A stretch of DNA of 64,000 nt from Prochlorococcus sp. MIT 1300 (GTDB taxonomy: Bacteria > Cyanobacteriota > Cyanobacteriia > PCC-6307 > Cyanobiaceae): the NCBI RefSeq assembly GCF_034092375.1, contig NZ_CP139302.1:1488001-1552000 (forward strand), given 5' to 3'. The position numbers and the translations under genes are program-made. The notes under the pieces are model-generated. The model made no database searches, was not told where the DNA came from, and worked only from the letters and a program-made list of their open reading frames with translations. This document shows, in pieces, positions 53,813-61,211 of this stretch (positions are counted from its first letter, which is position 1; each line of letters opens with the position of its first letter).

Positions 53813-55025
<1,213 letters not shown>

Positions 55026-56542: not shown

Positions 56543-57355
56543 ATGACAGATGCTTCAGATCAGATAACAGATGAGGGTTTGGTCAATTTGGCCATTGATC
56601 CAGATGTCTTGGCACAAGAGTTGGCTGCTGAACTTCTTGGAGACCCATTAGATGAAATTGACCCTGAAAGTGCAGGCCCTAATGCGTTAAGCGTCGCACG
56701 CGAGTGTGAATTGGGTTTGGATTGGCTGCAAAAAGGACATCAAGAGCGCAGACTTCAAGGACTACGTGTTTTTTGTGAGCACCGGGATCCACGAGCTCTT
56801 CCTCTTCTTATCCCTTTATTGCGTGAGCCTTGCCCTGTGGAGCGGATGAGTGCTGTTTATGCATTGGGTAGAAATCCTTGCCCTAGAGCTGTTGAAATTT
56901 TGGTTCAGTTATTGAAAACAGATGGTAATGCTTATGTTCGTAAAGCTACGGCTTGGAGTCTGGGAAATTATCCAGATGCCTCTGTCTTGCAGCCACTAGT
57001 AGATGCTCTTCAGCATGATGTTGCTGCAGTGAGGCTTTGGGCAGCTGGCTCGTTAGCAGAAGTAGGAGGTAATTCATTGAAGAATGCAGAATCCGCAGCA
57101 GATCAGTTGTTAATCAGTCTAAGAATTGACAGTGAACCTTTGGTTAGGAGTAATTGTATTTGGGCTCTTGGTCGTCTACATGACAAGTTGCCTGAGAGTT
57201 TGAGGGCTCAGATGGTGGATGTTTTTTTTAATGTTTTGTTGAATGATCTAGAAGCATCTGTACGTGATGAGGCGAGCATCGCGTTAGAGCAATTAGAGAA
57301 CCCACAAGTCATAGCAAGGCTTAAGGGGCTGATCGATGAAGGACTTTTGGTTTGA
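56543..57355 (+). CDS. HEAT-repeat / PBS-lyase-repeat protein
   Basis: A 270-residue helical repeat protein. From about residue 55 there are repeats of 30 or so residues with the pattern DPRALPLLIPLLREPCPVERMSAVYALGR, then AVEILVQLLKTDGNAYVRKATAWSLG, VRLWAAGSLAEVG and VRSNCIWALGRL. Related proteins include phycobilin lyases (CpcE/F) and scaffold proteins; phycobilin lyase function is not implied. Its last bases lie just before DUF2997, and it seems to open the run of genes to the aldo/keto reductase. No membrane segment. Confidence 0.88.
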   Translation: MTDASDQITDEGLVNLAIDPDVLAQELAAELLGDPLDEIDPESAGPNALSVARECELGLDWLQKGHQERRLQGLRVFCEHRDPRALPLLIPLLREPCPVERMSAVYALGRNPCPRAVEILVQLLKTDGNAYVRKATAWSLGNYPDASVLQPLVDALQHDVAAVRLWAAGSLAEVGGNSLKNAESAADQLLISLRIDSEPLVRSNCIWALGRLHDKLPESLRAQMVDVFFNVLLNDLEASVRDEASIALEQLENPQVIARLKGLIDEGLLV

Positions 57356-57444
57356 GAGGTTTTTTCAAAACACAGCCTTGTTACAACAGTCGCAAAATTT
57401 TGGTCAGAGTTTCTATAACATCATGGTCTTTGAAAGACAGATGC

Positions 57445-57648
57445 ATGCCACAACGCACTCTGCGATTCCGCATTCGACAGGATGGTCGGGTTGAAGAGAG
57501 CGTTGAGGGAGTGATCGGTGAGGACTGTAATCAGCTCACTGAAAAGCTTGAGGCCGCTTTGGGCTCAGTTGAGCACAGAGAACGGACCTCAGAGTCTTAC
57601 CTCCGTCCCCAGGACCAGGCACAGTCCATCCCTGCAGAAATCCTCTGA
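57445..57648 (+). CDS. DUF2997 family protein
   Basis: A small 67-residue protein of the DUF2997 family. The start is ATG 57445, giving MPQRTLRFRIRQDGRVEESVEGV; the frame stays open upstream to 57352, but those residues do not fit. Family members are beta-rich (RFRIRQDGRVEESV) and usually sit beside DUF1257. Its TGA overlaps the next ATG (TGATG), so it is translationally coupled to Ycf35. Function unknown. Confidence 0.85.
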   Translation: MPQRTLRFRIRQDGRVEESVEGVIGEDCNQLTEKLEAALGSVEHRERTSESYLRPQDQAQSIPAEIL

Positions 57649-58043
57649 TGTCCCACTTCAGCACACTAAAAACCCAACTGCGAAAGCTCGAACCGCTTGT
57701 ACAGGCCTTACAGGAGTTAGGGCATGTTCCAAACTTAGGCGAGCATATAATTCGTGGTTACCGTGGCCAGACTGTTAAGGCCGAGCTGGCAGTTCAAATG
57801 GCCAATGATGGTGGTGATATTGGTTTTCGATGGAATCCCTCCACAGAGTCGTATGAATTGGTTGCTGACTTGGACTTGTGGAAACATACGGTCCCAGTAG
57901 AGCGCTTTTTGGCACAATTAACTCAGCGTTATGCACTCAATACTGTTCTTGCAGCAACCGCACAAGAGGGTTTTGAGGTCTCAAAGCAAAGTAGCAACAT
58001 CGATGGCTCTATTGAATTGGTCGTAACCCGTTGGGACCCCTGA
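57648..58043 (+). CDS. ycf35: Ycf35 (DUF1257) protein
   Basis: A 131-residue protein of the Ycf35 family, kept in red-algal plastids and cyanobacteria without an established function. Recognisable parts are MSHFSTLKTQLRKLEPLVQALQELG, the middle RGYRGQTVKAELAVQM and the C-terminal NTVLAATAQEGFEVSKQ. No signal or membrane segment is seen. It overlaps DUF2997 at its start and the ferredoxin at its end (13 bases), so the three are one translational unit. Confidence 0.9.
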   Translation: MSHFSTLKTQLRKLEPLVQALQELGHVPNLGEHIIRGYRGQTVKAELAVQMANDGGDIGFRWNPSTESYELVADLDLWKHTVPVERFLAQLTQRYALNTVLAATAQEGFEVSKQSSNIDGSIELVVTRWDP

Positions 58044-58438
58044 CTCGGGAATCCGATCCATCAAAGGCGTTTTTAGCCAATTCTCAAAGTGAATTTTCAC
58101 GTAATGGCTTTGAACCGTGCTTGGGTGGAAAATTGCGCGAAAAGGCTGTTTGGGTCGACGAATCAGCTTGTATAGGATGTCGTTATTGTGCTCATGTTGC
58201 TACCAACACTTTTGTGATAGAGAGTGATTTGGGGCGTTCAAGGGCAGTTCGGCAAGATGGAGACAGTTCAGAGCGAATCCAGGAAGCTATAGATACATGC
58301 CCTGTTGACTGTATTCATTGGGTTCAGTTCGAAGAACTTGCAGATTTACGTTTGCAGTTAGATCAACTTGACTTACATCCTCTTGGGACGTTGCCCAGGG
58401 TGCCTAAAAGACTTAAGCCTCGAAAAAAAAATCAATAA
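58031..58438 (+). CDS. 4Fe-4S ferredoxin of the Ycf35 cluster
   Basis: A small ferredoxin of 135 residues. Cysteines 47, 50 and 53 (CIGCRYC) and Cys90 (TCPVDC) form the 4Fe-4S site; the usual second cluster is not evident. An N-terminal 40 residues without a signal peptide precede it, and the C-terminus is basic (PKRLKPRKKN). The TTG start at 58031 overlaps the end of ycf35. It resembles, from memory, the ferredoxin found beside ycf35 in other Prochlorococcus genomes. Its redox partner is not known. Confidence 0.88.
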   Translation: MGPLTRESDPSKAFLANSQSEFSRNGFEPCLGGKLREKAVWVDESACIGCRYCAHVATNTFVIESDLGRSRAVRQDGDSSERIQEAIDTCPVDCIHWVQFEELADLRLQLDQLDLHPLGTLPRVPKRLKPRKKNQ

Positions 58439-58445
58439 TTTTAGT

Positions 58446-59651
58446 GTGCCCACTTCTATTCCTTGCCGTCGCTTTGGTCGTTCAGAGATAGAAATACCAA
58501 TTTTGTCTCTTGGTGGAATGCGATATCAACAGAGCTGGTCTGATCTGGCTTTGGATGAAATTTCTTTTAATGAGCAATCTCATGTGGAAAATATTTTGGA
58601 GGCAGCTGTGTCCTGTGGTTTGCATCATGTAGAAACTGCAAGGCATTACGGAAGTTCTGAGCTGCAGCTTGGTAGGGCAATGCAGAAGATCTCTGATTCA
58701 AAGCGTTTGCTTCAGACAAAAGTTCCTGCGAATGATGATCCCCATTCTTTTGAAAAAGAGTTGGAGTTGAGTTTTGAAAGACTTAAATGCAAAAGGGTTG
58801 ATCTGTTCGCAATTCATGGTCTGAATCTCCCTGAGCATCTGGATCAGACTCTGCGCCCAAATGGGTGTATGGATGTTGTTCGTAGATGGCAGGATGACGG
58901 GAGAATTGGGCATGTTGGTTTCTCTACTCATGGTCCAGTAGATCTAATTATTGAGGCGATTAAGACAGGCCATTTTGATTACGTGAACCTTCATTGGTAT
59001 TACATTTGGCAAGAGAATTCACTTGCTTTAGATGTTGCGAAAGAATATGATTTAGGCGTTTTCATAATTAGCCCTACTGATAAGGGAGGACATCTTCATA
59101 ACCCTTCTTTAGAACTTATTAAGTTGTGTGCTCCCCTACACCCTATTGTTTTTAATGATCTCTTCTGCTTAAGTGATCCAAGGGTACACACTATTAGTGT
59201 AGGTGTAGCCAACTTGCAAGATTTTGAGAAGCACCTTGAAGCAGTAACACTTTTAGATAGTGTTCAAAATTATTTGCCGGAAATAAAGGCACGTTTGTAT
59301 TCTGCTGCACGAATGAAGTTAGGCGATGCTTGGTTAGATAGCTGGAAGGTAGGTCTGCCAAGTTGGCAAGAAACCCCAGGCCATATAAACCTTCATGTTT
59401 TGCTTTGGCTTCATAATCTGCTTGAGGCATGGGATATGGAAAGTTATGCAAAGGCTCGCTATTGCTTGTTAGGTAATGGGGGACATTGGTTTCCAGGTAG
59501 TAATGCTGATGTTTTAGATAGTGAGGTTAGTGAAATAAGTTTAAGGGAAGCTCTTTGCAATAGCCCTTGGCGAGATGATATCCCTTTATTGCTGAGGAAT
59601 CTCCGAGAACGAATTGGTGGGCAATCTAGGCAAAGGCTTTCTAGTGCATAG
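58446..59651 (+). CDS. Aldo/keto reductase family protein
   Basis: A 401-residue member of the aldo/keto reductase barrel family: RRFGRSEIEIPILSLGGMRY, then ETARHYGSSELQLG, where the usual catalytic Asp is replaced by Glu but Tyr is kept, LQTKV with the catalytic Lys, DLFAIHG with the His, and GRIGHVGFSTHG. The C-terminal 100 residues are less typical. The GTG at 58446 is preferred to an earlier in-frame ATG that would overlap the ferredoxin by 71 bases. It is downstream of the ferredoxin and may be part of the same operon. Its end overlaps rsmG by 11 bases. The substrate is unknown. Confidence 0.85.
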   Translation: MPTSIPCRRFGRSEIEIPILSLGGMRYQQSWSDLALDEISFNEQSHVENILEAAVSCGLHHVETARHYGSSELQLGRAMQKISDSKRLLQTKVPANDDPHSFEKELELSFERLKCKRVDLFAIHGLNLPEHLDQTLRPNGCMDVVRRWQDDGRIGHVGFSTHGPVDLIIEAIKTGHFDYVNLHWYYIWQENSLALDVAKEYDLGVFIISPTDKGGHLHNPSLELIKLCAPLHPIVFNDLFCLSDPRVHTISVGVANLQDFEKHLEAVTLLDSVQNYLPEIKARLYSAARMKLGDAWLDSWKVGLPSWQETPGHINLHVLLWLHNLLEAWDMESYAKARYCLLGNGGHWFPGSNADVLDSEVSEISLREALCNSPWRDDIPLLLRNLRERIGGQSRQRLSSA

Positions 59652-60469: not shown

Positions 60470-60985
60470 TTGACTGCTCTCCCTAACTATTACGAACAAT
60501 TAGAAGTCTCTCGCTCTGCAGATAATGAGACACTTCGGAGAGCGTTCTGTCGATTGAGTAAGACTCTTCACCCAGATACGACTTCTTTGCCGCCTGAAAC
60601 GGCTTCTGAGAAATTTCAAGCACTAAAAAAGGCTTATGAGTTTCTTTCTGACCCGGCTCTGAGAAAGTCCTATGACGAAAGTCTTGATCTAGAGATTTCA
60701 ATAAAATCATCATCAAGCTCAAAGTTGATGGAGACTCGCTTTAAGGGTCAACGAAAGAAAGAAGAAGTTCGCCGACCGCTCTCAGGAGGAGAGCTTTTCT
60801 CACTTTTGCTACTTGGCTTGGTCTTATGCATAAGTTTGTTGGTGGCAGGCGGAATTTCTCTGGTACAGGGACGGGAGTTGCAGGTGCGACCAAGCTGGCT
60901 CATAGTTGATTGGATTGTTGTTAAGGCTTCTCCACAGCAAGATGGTCGATCACCTACTTCCTTCTTCGGATATCCCACTGAATAG
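60470..60985 (+). CDS. J-domain membrane protein
   Basis: A protein with an N-terminal J domain and a single membrane helix. From TTG 60470 (171 aa) it begins TALPNYYEQLEVSRSADNETLRRAFCRLSKTLHPDT; the HPD motif at residues 34-36 is intact, so it should stimulate an Hsp70. A basic linker is followed by the helix LLLLGLVLCISLLVAGGISL. Earlier in-frame starts (TTG 60404 and 60458) would add residues that do not fit a J domain. It is followed by DUF3143, 10 bases later. Confidence 0.86.
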   Translation: MTALPNYYEQLEVSRSADNETLRRAFCRLSKTLHPDTTSLPPETASEKFQALKKAYEFLSDPALRKSYDESLDLEISIKSSSSSKLMETRFKGQRKKEEVRRPLSGGELFSLLLLGLVLCISLLVAGGISLVQGRELQVRPSWLIVDWIVVKASPQQDGRSPTSFFGYPTE

Positions 60986-60995
60986 ACACTCTTTA

Positions 60996-61211
60996 ATGTC
61001 TATAGAAAGGTGGCTGGCTGAGTTGGGAGCTGAGCAAAGTGCAGAGGATCTTTCGCGATGGAATTGGGAAATGCCTGAATGGTCAGCAGAAATAAAGATC
61101 GACCAAGAGGAACTGATAGTTATTTGGAGATGTGATGTTGAGCGACGATGTGCTTTCCCCTATGGGCTTTCAAGACAAGATGTAGAAGCAGCACTTATTC
61201 AGGGCCCTTGA
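60996..61211 (+). CDS. DUF3143 family protein
   Basis: A small 71-residue acidic protein of the DUF3143 family, which is mainly found in cyanobacteria. ATG 60996 gives MSIERWLAELGAEQSAEDLSRW, and the rest (EWSAEIKIDQEELIVIWRCD, FPYGLSRQDVEAALIQGP) fits the usual beta-rich pattern. An earlier frame opening at 60906 runs into the J-domain gene and is not favoured. It probably shares a transcript with the J-domain protein. Function unknown. Confidence 0.85.
   Translation: MSIERWLAELGAEQSAEDLSRWNWEMPEWSAEIKIDQEELIVIWRCDVERRCAFPYGLSRQDVEAALIQGP

Follow-up and report, generated by a model that had tools for sequence, protein, structure and literature searches.

What does Ycf35 do, and with which partners does it act? 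The question is raised by a cluster of five genes at positions 56543-59651 of a 64,000-nucleotide stretch of the Prochlorococcus sp. MIT 1300 genome (1.855 Mb, a single contig; the whole stretch is called the window below), in which genes for a DUF2997 protein, Ycf35 (a DUF1257 protein) and a Fed7-type ferredoxin follow one another between genes for a HEAT-repeat protein and an aldo/keto reductase (AKR). Many plastid genomes of red algae retain ycf35 (PMC5940233, in part), a gene with no known function. From the neighbours of Ycf35 relatives in cyanobacteria, other bacteria, archaea and viruses we tentatively propose that Ycf35 and DUF2997 act together as adaptors for a machine of the AAA+/Hsp70 type, Fed7 being a sensor or client.

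The order DUF2997, DUF1257, fed7 on one strand, as found in the window, is that of the published "cluster g" (PMC4284462), and hence the adjacency of the three genes is by itself no discovery. According to the passages of that paper that concern it, fed7 of Synechocystis sits in a tricistronic operon of the same three genes in the same order, Fed7 makes two-hybrid contacts with a DnaJ protein and FTR and has glutaredoxin 2 among its published partners, and the protein has a role in oxidative, metal and iron stress. SigD-dependent transcripts include ssl1263, fed7 and ycf35 (PMC8875361, in part), and Ycf35 is reported to go up under copper or iron deduction (PMC8141849, in part). The ferredoxin of the window is of the Fed7 type, having a single PF13370 4Fe-4S domain and five cysteines in the arrangement CxxCxxC...CPVxC, a pattern found in all 36 Fed7 sequences of its cluster. 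New here are the AAA+/Hsp70 setting of the Ycf35 family, the viral form of the pair, a recurrent 4Fe-4S partner and a co-occurrence of N-terminal tails; AAA+, LGG motif and phage copies are not mentioned in those passages of PMC4284462 that describe cluster g.

Conservation was tallied over 146 genomes of the phylum, in which the DUF1257 proteins were divided into class A (that of the window), class B (73-86 bits) and class C (121-132 bits), the classes being score bands set after the match lists had been seen. These tallies, like the 252-genome counts given below, hold among the matches listed. Class A is present in at least 64 of the 146 genomes (58 other Cyanobacteriia plus six of the window's family). 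In all 64 a Fer4_13 ferredoxin is encoded on the same strand within 1.2 kb of ycf35, a count based on 67 of the Fer4_13 matches (three besides the 64 that are linked to Ycf35) and not on all of them. The distance from ycf35 to DUF2997 is at most 1 kb in 62 of these genomes and at most 2 kb in the remaining two. In the window DUF2997 starts at ATG 57445 and its stop codon, TGA 57646-57648, has one base in common with the ycf35 start, ATG 57648, giving the sequence TGATG; among the six genomes of the family the overlap is -1 in five, while the remaining one has -14. The original prediction, made from the letters of the window, had described this junction and had taken the middle three genes as an overlapping unit. 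Both observations hold, and the comparison of gene order across cyanobacteria that it proposed finds the ferredoxin adjacency well beyond close relatives.

The paralogues of class A give the family a different setting. Class B genes lie directly downstream of a gene for a full-length Ycf46-type AAA+ protein in 57 of the 61 copies in the band; of the four exceptions, three come from genomes outside Cyanobacteriia and the fourth is a class C-like copy. In each of four class B loci that were read, a small RHH-type gene is followed by the AAA+ gene and then by DUF1257, and in these four no recognised Fe-S (iron-sulphur) gene stands next to the class B copy. The same order is that of slr0373-slr0374(Ycf46)-slr0376, a stress operon of Synechocystis (PMC7496141 and PMC7283877, in the parts that treat it), which responds to iron and oxidative stress (PMC7496141), and we infer that slr0376 encodes a class B DUF1257 protein. 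In contrast to the window triad, loci of this type have neither DUF2997 nor a ferredoxin. Class B is absent from the six sampled genomes of the window's family among the matches listed.

Class C genes adjoin an AAA+ gene in eight of 11 copies; three of their loci (L042, L043 and L045) lie near DUF2997 and GrpE, two of them also near Hsp70, and plasmids carry similar sets. Some chaperone-based conflict systems (PMC7159879) resemble the class C neighbourhoods in having Hsp70/GrpE, FGS, GUN4 and repeat domains. They are, however, built on MoxR-vWA or GTPases, whereas the three DUF1257-linked ATPases that were scanned are classical AAA proteins (PF00004, AAA_lid_3). A label of anti-phage defence was rejected: neither Ycf35 nor DUF2997 was matched by PADLOC, and where the AAA+ proteins hit its models, those of IetA and TRIP13, they did so in their ATPase region. 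Long frames around DUF1257 or DUF2997 in L056, L057 and L246, considered as gene fusions that might serve as Rosetta stones, were unconvincing.

The window genome has five AAA+ matches, of which the nearest, about 158 kb from the locus, is its only full-length Ycf46 (498 aa, G000:C1:1704561-1706057, L270:3562-5058). It is linked to no DUF1257 gene and has a housekeeping neighbourhood, with neighbours that by eye resemble serS and yidC. Given this distance, the window locus is not of the AAA+/DUF1257/DUF2997/Hsp70 type; it has that type's DUF1257-DUF2997 pair, with no AAA+ gene within the locus.

Outside Cyanobacteriota the AAA+ setting recurs. From a scan of species genomes we kept the best 80 of 168 confirmed DUF1257 relatives, 14 of which come from outside the phylum and include Chloroflexota, Acidobacteriota, Nitrospirota, Verrucomicrobiota, Desulfobacterales and two Asgard archaea. 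An AAA+ gene, DUF2997 or both lie near DUF1257 in all 14 loci (AAA+ in 10, DUF2997 in 12, Hsp70 in six, one of them weak, and GrpE in two). Over the best 80 the counts are AAA+ 54, DUF2997 31, Hsp70 32 and GrpE 21, and absences weigh little there, many of the loci being cut by contig ends; with the same limit, Fed7 was found in none of the 80. By contrast, AAA+, Hsp70 and GrpE genes are all missing from 20 class A loci of about 16 kb, sampled one per other family. A Fer4_12/4Fe-4S radical-SAM protein is encoded in nine of 18 distant or plasmid loci (checked with Pfam in three), and in several its gene comes close behind DUF2997; examples lying close to DUF2997 are L186:2275-2847, L239:6897-7664 and L247:4803-5468. 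With Fed7 in cyanobacteria and the radical-SAM protein in these loci, a 4Fe-4S protein accompanies the DUF2997-Ycf35 pair in two very different settings. These loci point to a DUF1257-DUF2997-AAA+ locus type, often with Hsp70 and often with a 4Fe-4S radical-SAM protein, in bacteria and Asgard archaea, a type not found in the full-text literature on Ycf35, DUF2997, DUF1257 and Ycf46 as far as its partial coverage goes. As a separate observation, a DUF1257 gene on a plasmid of Treponema succinifaciens (L078:6001-6408) lies inside a cluster of phage tail and baseplate genes.

The pair is also viral. Ycf35 is encoded in 15 phage records, and a scan of viral contigs with an alignment as query gave 444 confirmed relatives, of which the best 80 were kept; the same scan with the single window protein as query gave no match. 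DUF2997 directly precedes and overlaps ycf35 in 74 of the 75 viral loci with room upstream. P-SSM2 (L032:5802-6381) and P-SSM7 (L033:5832-6384) are examples of viruses with the pair. The stretches of the 80 viral loci contain no Fed7, AAA+, J protein, Hsp70, GrpE, HEAT or AKR gene. Hence at least one use of the pair does not call for a Fed7 gene beside it. The tree, with a bootstrap still short of full convergence, groups all ten viral rows in a single clade (99/92) nested in a clade (100/96) of class A, the window's family and two plasmid rows, and so, as judged from this tree, a single origin of the viral pair from the host pair is most likely. PHROGs 23133 and 20456, which have no function assigned in that database, are DUF2997 and Ycf35, respectively. 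Two families can thus be named, and the 444 relatives make Ycf35 common in marine viruses.

A short motif offers a possible point of contact between the pair and Fed7. Ahead of its cluster domain Fed7 carries [DE]PxLGG, in two copies in 36 of 44 distinct sequences and in one copy in the other eight; the single copy is the form in all six genomes of the window's family. A profile of the Fed7 tail matched only Fed7, once per genome, in 59 genomes, with one weak second match (in genome G011). A different tail, QPREYDAVLGG...AVLGGIEGVKxRL, is common in class C loci, where this tandem-LGG segment sits on FGE-sulfatase, LRV/HEAT, GUN4 and WD40 proteins, whose C-terminal domains are mutually unrelated (examples are L043:8486-9742, L044:9001-9789, L045:7658-9613 and L204:9181-10365). 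The tandem tail is present in all 11 genomes with class C DUF1257 versus one of the 135 others, a count that leaves out one partial match of 22 residues (in G127). Over 252 Cyanobacteriia genomes, with a class C cut of at least 128.9 bits set after the list had been seen, the figures are 54 of 56 versus 12 of 196, and for the 210 newly sampled genomes 47 of 49 versus 12 of 161. Counted by genus, the only correction for ancestry that was applied, they are 24 of 25 versus six of 98. DUF1257 is nearby in only one of seven tail loci looked at from genomes lacking class C. Homology of the Fed7 tail and the class C tail is not supported, a profile comparison giving a probability of 0.3% (E 0.24).

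The class C tails could instead be a spreading N-terminal cassette unrelated to the Fed7 motif, with DUF1257 reading neither. We put this at not far short of an even chance, and it is compatible with the other explanations weighed below. The tails differ outside LGG, 12 tail genomes have no class C, and for 24 of the 36 tail genes a class C DUF1257 gene is found no more than 20 kb away, so linkage explains part of the co-occurrence. The other 12, in three genomes, are far away or on other contigs, and this together with the unrelated C-terminal domains argues against a cassette.

The proteins themselves are small. DUF2997 has one cysteine that is invariant in 65 of 65 aligned rows, within a motif G-x(2-5)-C-x3-T-x3-E found in 39 of 39 cluster members, and its AlphaFold2 (AF2) model is a hairpin plus a helix (pLDDT 80.4). 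Ycf35 has no cysteine in 38 of the 52 members of its cluster. Its AF2 model, a confident one (pLDDT 90.0, pTM 0.81), gave no match at E<=0.001 when compared by Foldseek with the PDB; VIA-align placed the KA1/AMPK group at the top, with Chk1 KA1 at Z 6.8 over 79 residues and 3.1 Å, which is below the trusted level.

Given these results, we favour, still at well under an even chance, an adaptor role: Ycf35 and DUF2997 would together serve a remodelling machine of AAA+/Hsp70 type, and Fed7 would be its tailed Fe-S sensor or client. DUF2997 and Ycf35 would form an obligate two-protein unit, co-produced through their overlapping genes, and would act as adaptor or regulator for a remodelling machine of the Ycf46-type AAA+ or Hsp70 kind. 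The cyanobacterial housekeeping copy of the pair would be dedicated to Fed7, recognised through its short N-terminal [DE]PxLGG motif, and the labile [4Fe-4S] cluster of Fed7 would report iron or oxidative status. Loss or rearrangement of the cluster would lead the pair to pass Fed7, or a protein that Fed7 had bound, on to a J-protein/Hsp70 system or to AAA+, with release, remodelling or repair as the outcome. The sequences themselves show that DUF2997 and Ycf35 form a pair, that this pair is coupled to Fed7 and that its relatives have an AAA+/Hsp70 setting; they also show the motif and the invariant cysteine of DUF2997. Binding of the Fed7 motif by the pair, and service of the pair by the unlinked Ycf46 of the window genome, would be further steps.

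Several observations weigh against this adaptor model. Among the matches listed no class A copy in the 64 genomes has an AAA+ gene within 1.2 kb on the same strand, and the 20 class A loci from other families contain none either; in the window genome the nearest AAA+ gene is the distant Ycf46. The machine partner of the housekeeping copy is therefore drawn from the paralogues. The tails of Fed7 and of class C are alike in four letters only, their LGG resemblance may be coincidence, and twelve tail-bearing genomes lack class C DUF1257. The Fed7 partners FTR and glutaredoxin 2 (PMC4284462, in the passages on interactions) fit plain electron transfer, the J protein encoded near the window cluster is not tied to Sll1384, and the viral pairs come without Fed7.

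Nearly as likely as the adaptor model is a plain redox relay, in which Fed7 would be an electron or disulphide carrier in the published route from Fed1 through FTR and Fed7 to glutaredoxin 2, and DUF2997-Ycf35 would dock Fed7 or be reduced through the DUF2997 cysteine, with no remodelling machine. Such a relay, although on the unlikely side in absolute terms, accords with the published interactions and stress phenotypes of Fed7 (PMC4284462, as far as those passages go), with the invariant cysteine, with the unbroken Fed7 adjacency and with the 4Fe-4S proteins beside distant relatives. It leaves unexplained the AAA+ gene next to class B in 57 genomes, Hsp70 and GrpE in 32 and 21 of the 80 species-genome loci, and the viral pairs without Fed7. 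The original prediction had suggested a small redox system. An Fe-S/redox theme is borne out by the Fed7 partners, the DUF2997 cysteine and the radical-SAM proteins of nine of 18 distant loci, but a small redox system would be the cyanobacterial form only: the usual partner in the family is AAA+, often with Hsp70/GrpE, and viruses have the pair without Fed7.

A wider form of the adaptor model would make Ycf35 with DUF2997 a reader of N-terminal LGG tags. The housekeeping form would read the EPxLGG tail of Fed7, making Fed7 a client of Ycf46/Hsp70, the class C form would read the tandem-LGG tails on unrelated sensor or effector domains, and Prochlorococcus viruses would carry the bare pair to take over the host version. 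We consider this extended scheme doubtful.

A role in Fe-S maturation or repair is unlikely, if well above negligible. Here the pair, as scaffold or metallochaperone, would use energy from AAA+ or Hsp70 to load or repair [4Fe-4S] clusters, its clients being Fed7 in cyanobacteria and the radical-SAM activase elsewhere. Hsp70/J systems load Fe-S clusters in known pathways, and a 4Fe-4S protein stands beside the pair both in cyanobacteria (Fed7) and in nine of 18 other loci. Expression of fed7 and of the slr0374 operon is iron-responsive (PMC4284462 and PMC7496141, in the parts concerned). However, a Ycf35 free of cysteine in 38 of 52 members and a DUF2997 with one invariant cysteine offer too few ligands for a classical scaffold, and no recognised Fe-S gene stands beside the class B copies of the four loci read. 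The maturation complex that had been suggested for the window genes is possible, without specific support. That the genes form an ordinary operon, co-expressed with no joint function, is very improbable. In its favour, the products are tied together here by sequence and not by direct experiment; against it speak an adjacency that is unbroken across 64 of 64 genomes from many families and the overlapping pair kept in compact viral genomes, both hard to obtain unless the products act jointly.

These comparisons make the function of ycf35 open to test: they pair it with DUF2997, place its family beside one class of machine (Ycf46-type AAA+, Hsp70) and single out a motif on Fed7 as a candidate for recognition.

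The features of the window are collected in Table 1. The five genes of the cluster run in one direction, as had been predicted, and all have Pfam matches. Between the HEAT stop codon and DUF2997 are 89 bases. The 13-base overlap of ycf35 and the ferredoxin gene that had also been claimed exists if the ferredoxin starts at TTG 58031, but not if it starts at CTG 58040, and relatives (DPxxAF...) fit both starts equally well. The AKR gene most likely starts at GTG 58446, only 7 bases past the ferredoxin stop, and hence looks co-operonic with it here, probably in the window's family only.

Table 1 Features of the DUF2997-ycf35-fed7 cluster and its downstream neighbours (window positions)
Feature	Position	Strand	Basis
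HEAT-repeat protein, 270 aa	56543..57355	+	HEAT_2 PF13646 8.7e-34 (Pfam, whole protein)
DUF2997 protein, 67 aa, upstream member of the pair	57445..57648	+	PF11211 5.5e-19 (Pfam)
Ycf35 (DUF1257), 131 aa	57648..58043	+	PF06868 3.6e-34 (Pfam)
Fed7-type single [4Fe-4S] ferredoxin, CIGCxxC...CPVDC	58031 or 58040..58438	+	PF13370 (Fer4_13) 1.8e-16
Fed7 N-terminal motif NGFEPCLGGKLREK, single copy	58103..58144	+	tail motif comparison across Fed7 sequences
Aldo/keto reductase (AKR), 401 aa	58446..59651	+	PF00248 1.2e-17 (Pfam)
Membrane-type J-domain protein with hydrophobic segment	60416..60985	+	PF00226 3.8e-18 (Pfam)
DUF3143	60906-61211		follows the J-domain gene

HEAT lies upstream of DUF2997 and AKR next after Fed7 in all six sampled genomes of the window's family, and the order of HEAT, AKR and J protein is kept in all six. 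In the 20 loci from other families, HEAT and AKR are both near the triad in one (G036, AKR being one gene further from Fed7), and a J protein comes directly after Fed7 in one (G019). HEAT and AKR, absent from 19 of the 20, were therefore rejected as core parts, in line with the suggestion that they are linked to the triad mainly by position; with the J protein they are lineage-specific neighbours and not part of the triad. Compared with cluster g as published (PMC4284462), the window's family adds HEAT upstream and AKR downstream, and its Fed7 has one EPxLGG copy whereas most others have two.

The J-domain gene is separated from the AKR end of the cluster by rsmG (named by eye) on the opposite strand. 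The reading of its product as the Fed7 partner Sll1384 was downgraded: the published dnaJ has suhB and hisZ on its two sides (PMC4284462, in the passage on that gene) and the neighbours differ here. Two other J-protein loci of the window genome did not settle which is Sll1384. Chloroplasts have DnaJ-ferredoxin fusions (the DJC76/77/82 clade and CDJ3-5; PMC3720927), in which a ferredoxin domain is joined to a J domain, and J-proteins of this fused kind are called Fed7-like in part of PMC4284462. The DJC76/77/82-type proteins (PMC3720927) are fused and nuclear-encoded, unlike the separate Fed7 and J-protein genes of the window.

Elsewhere in the window, a small HLI-like gene (53816-53974; a Chloroa_b-bind match below the cut-off) lies between rpoC2 and an rlmN-like gene, and it keeps this position in most of the family's genomes that were sampled.

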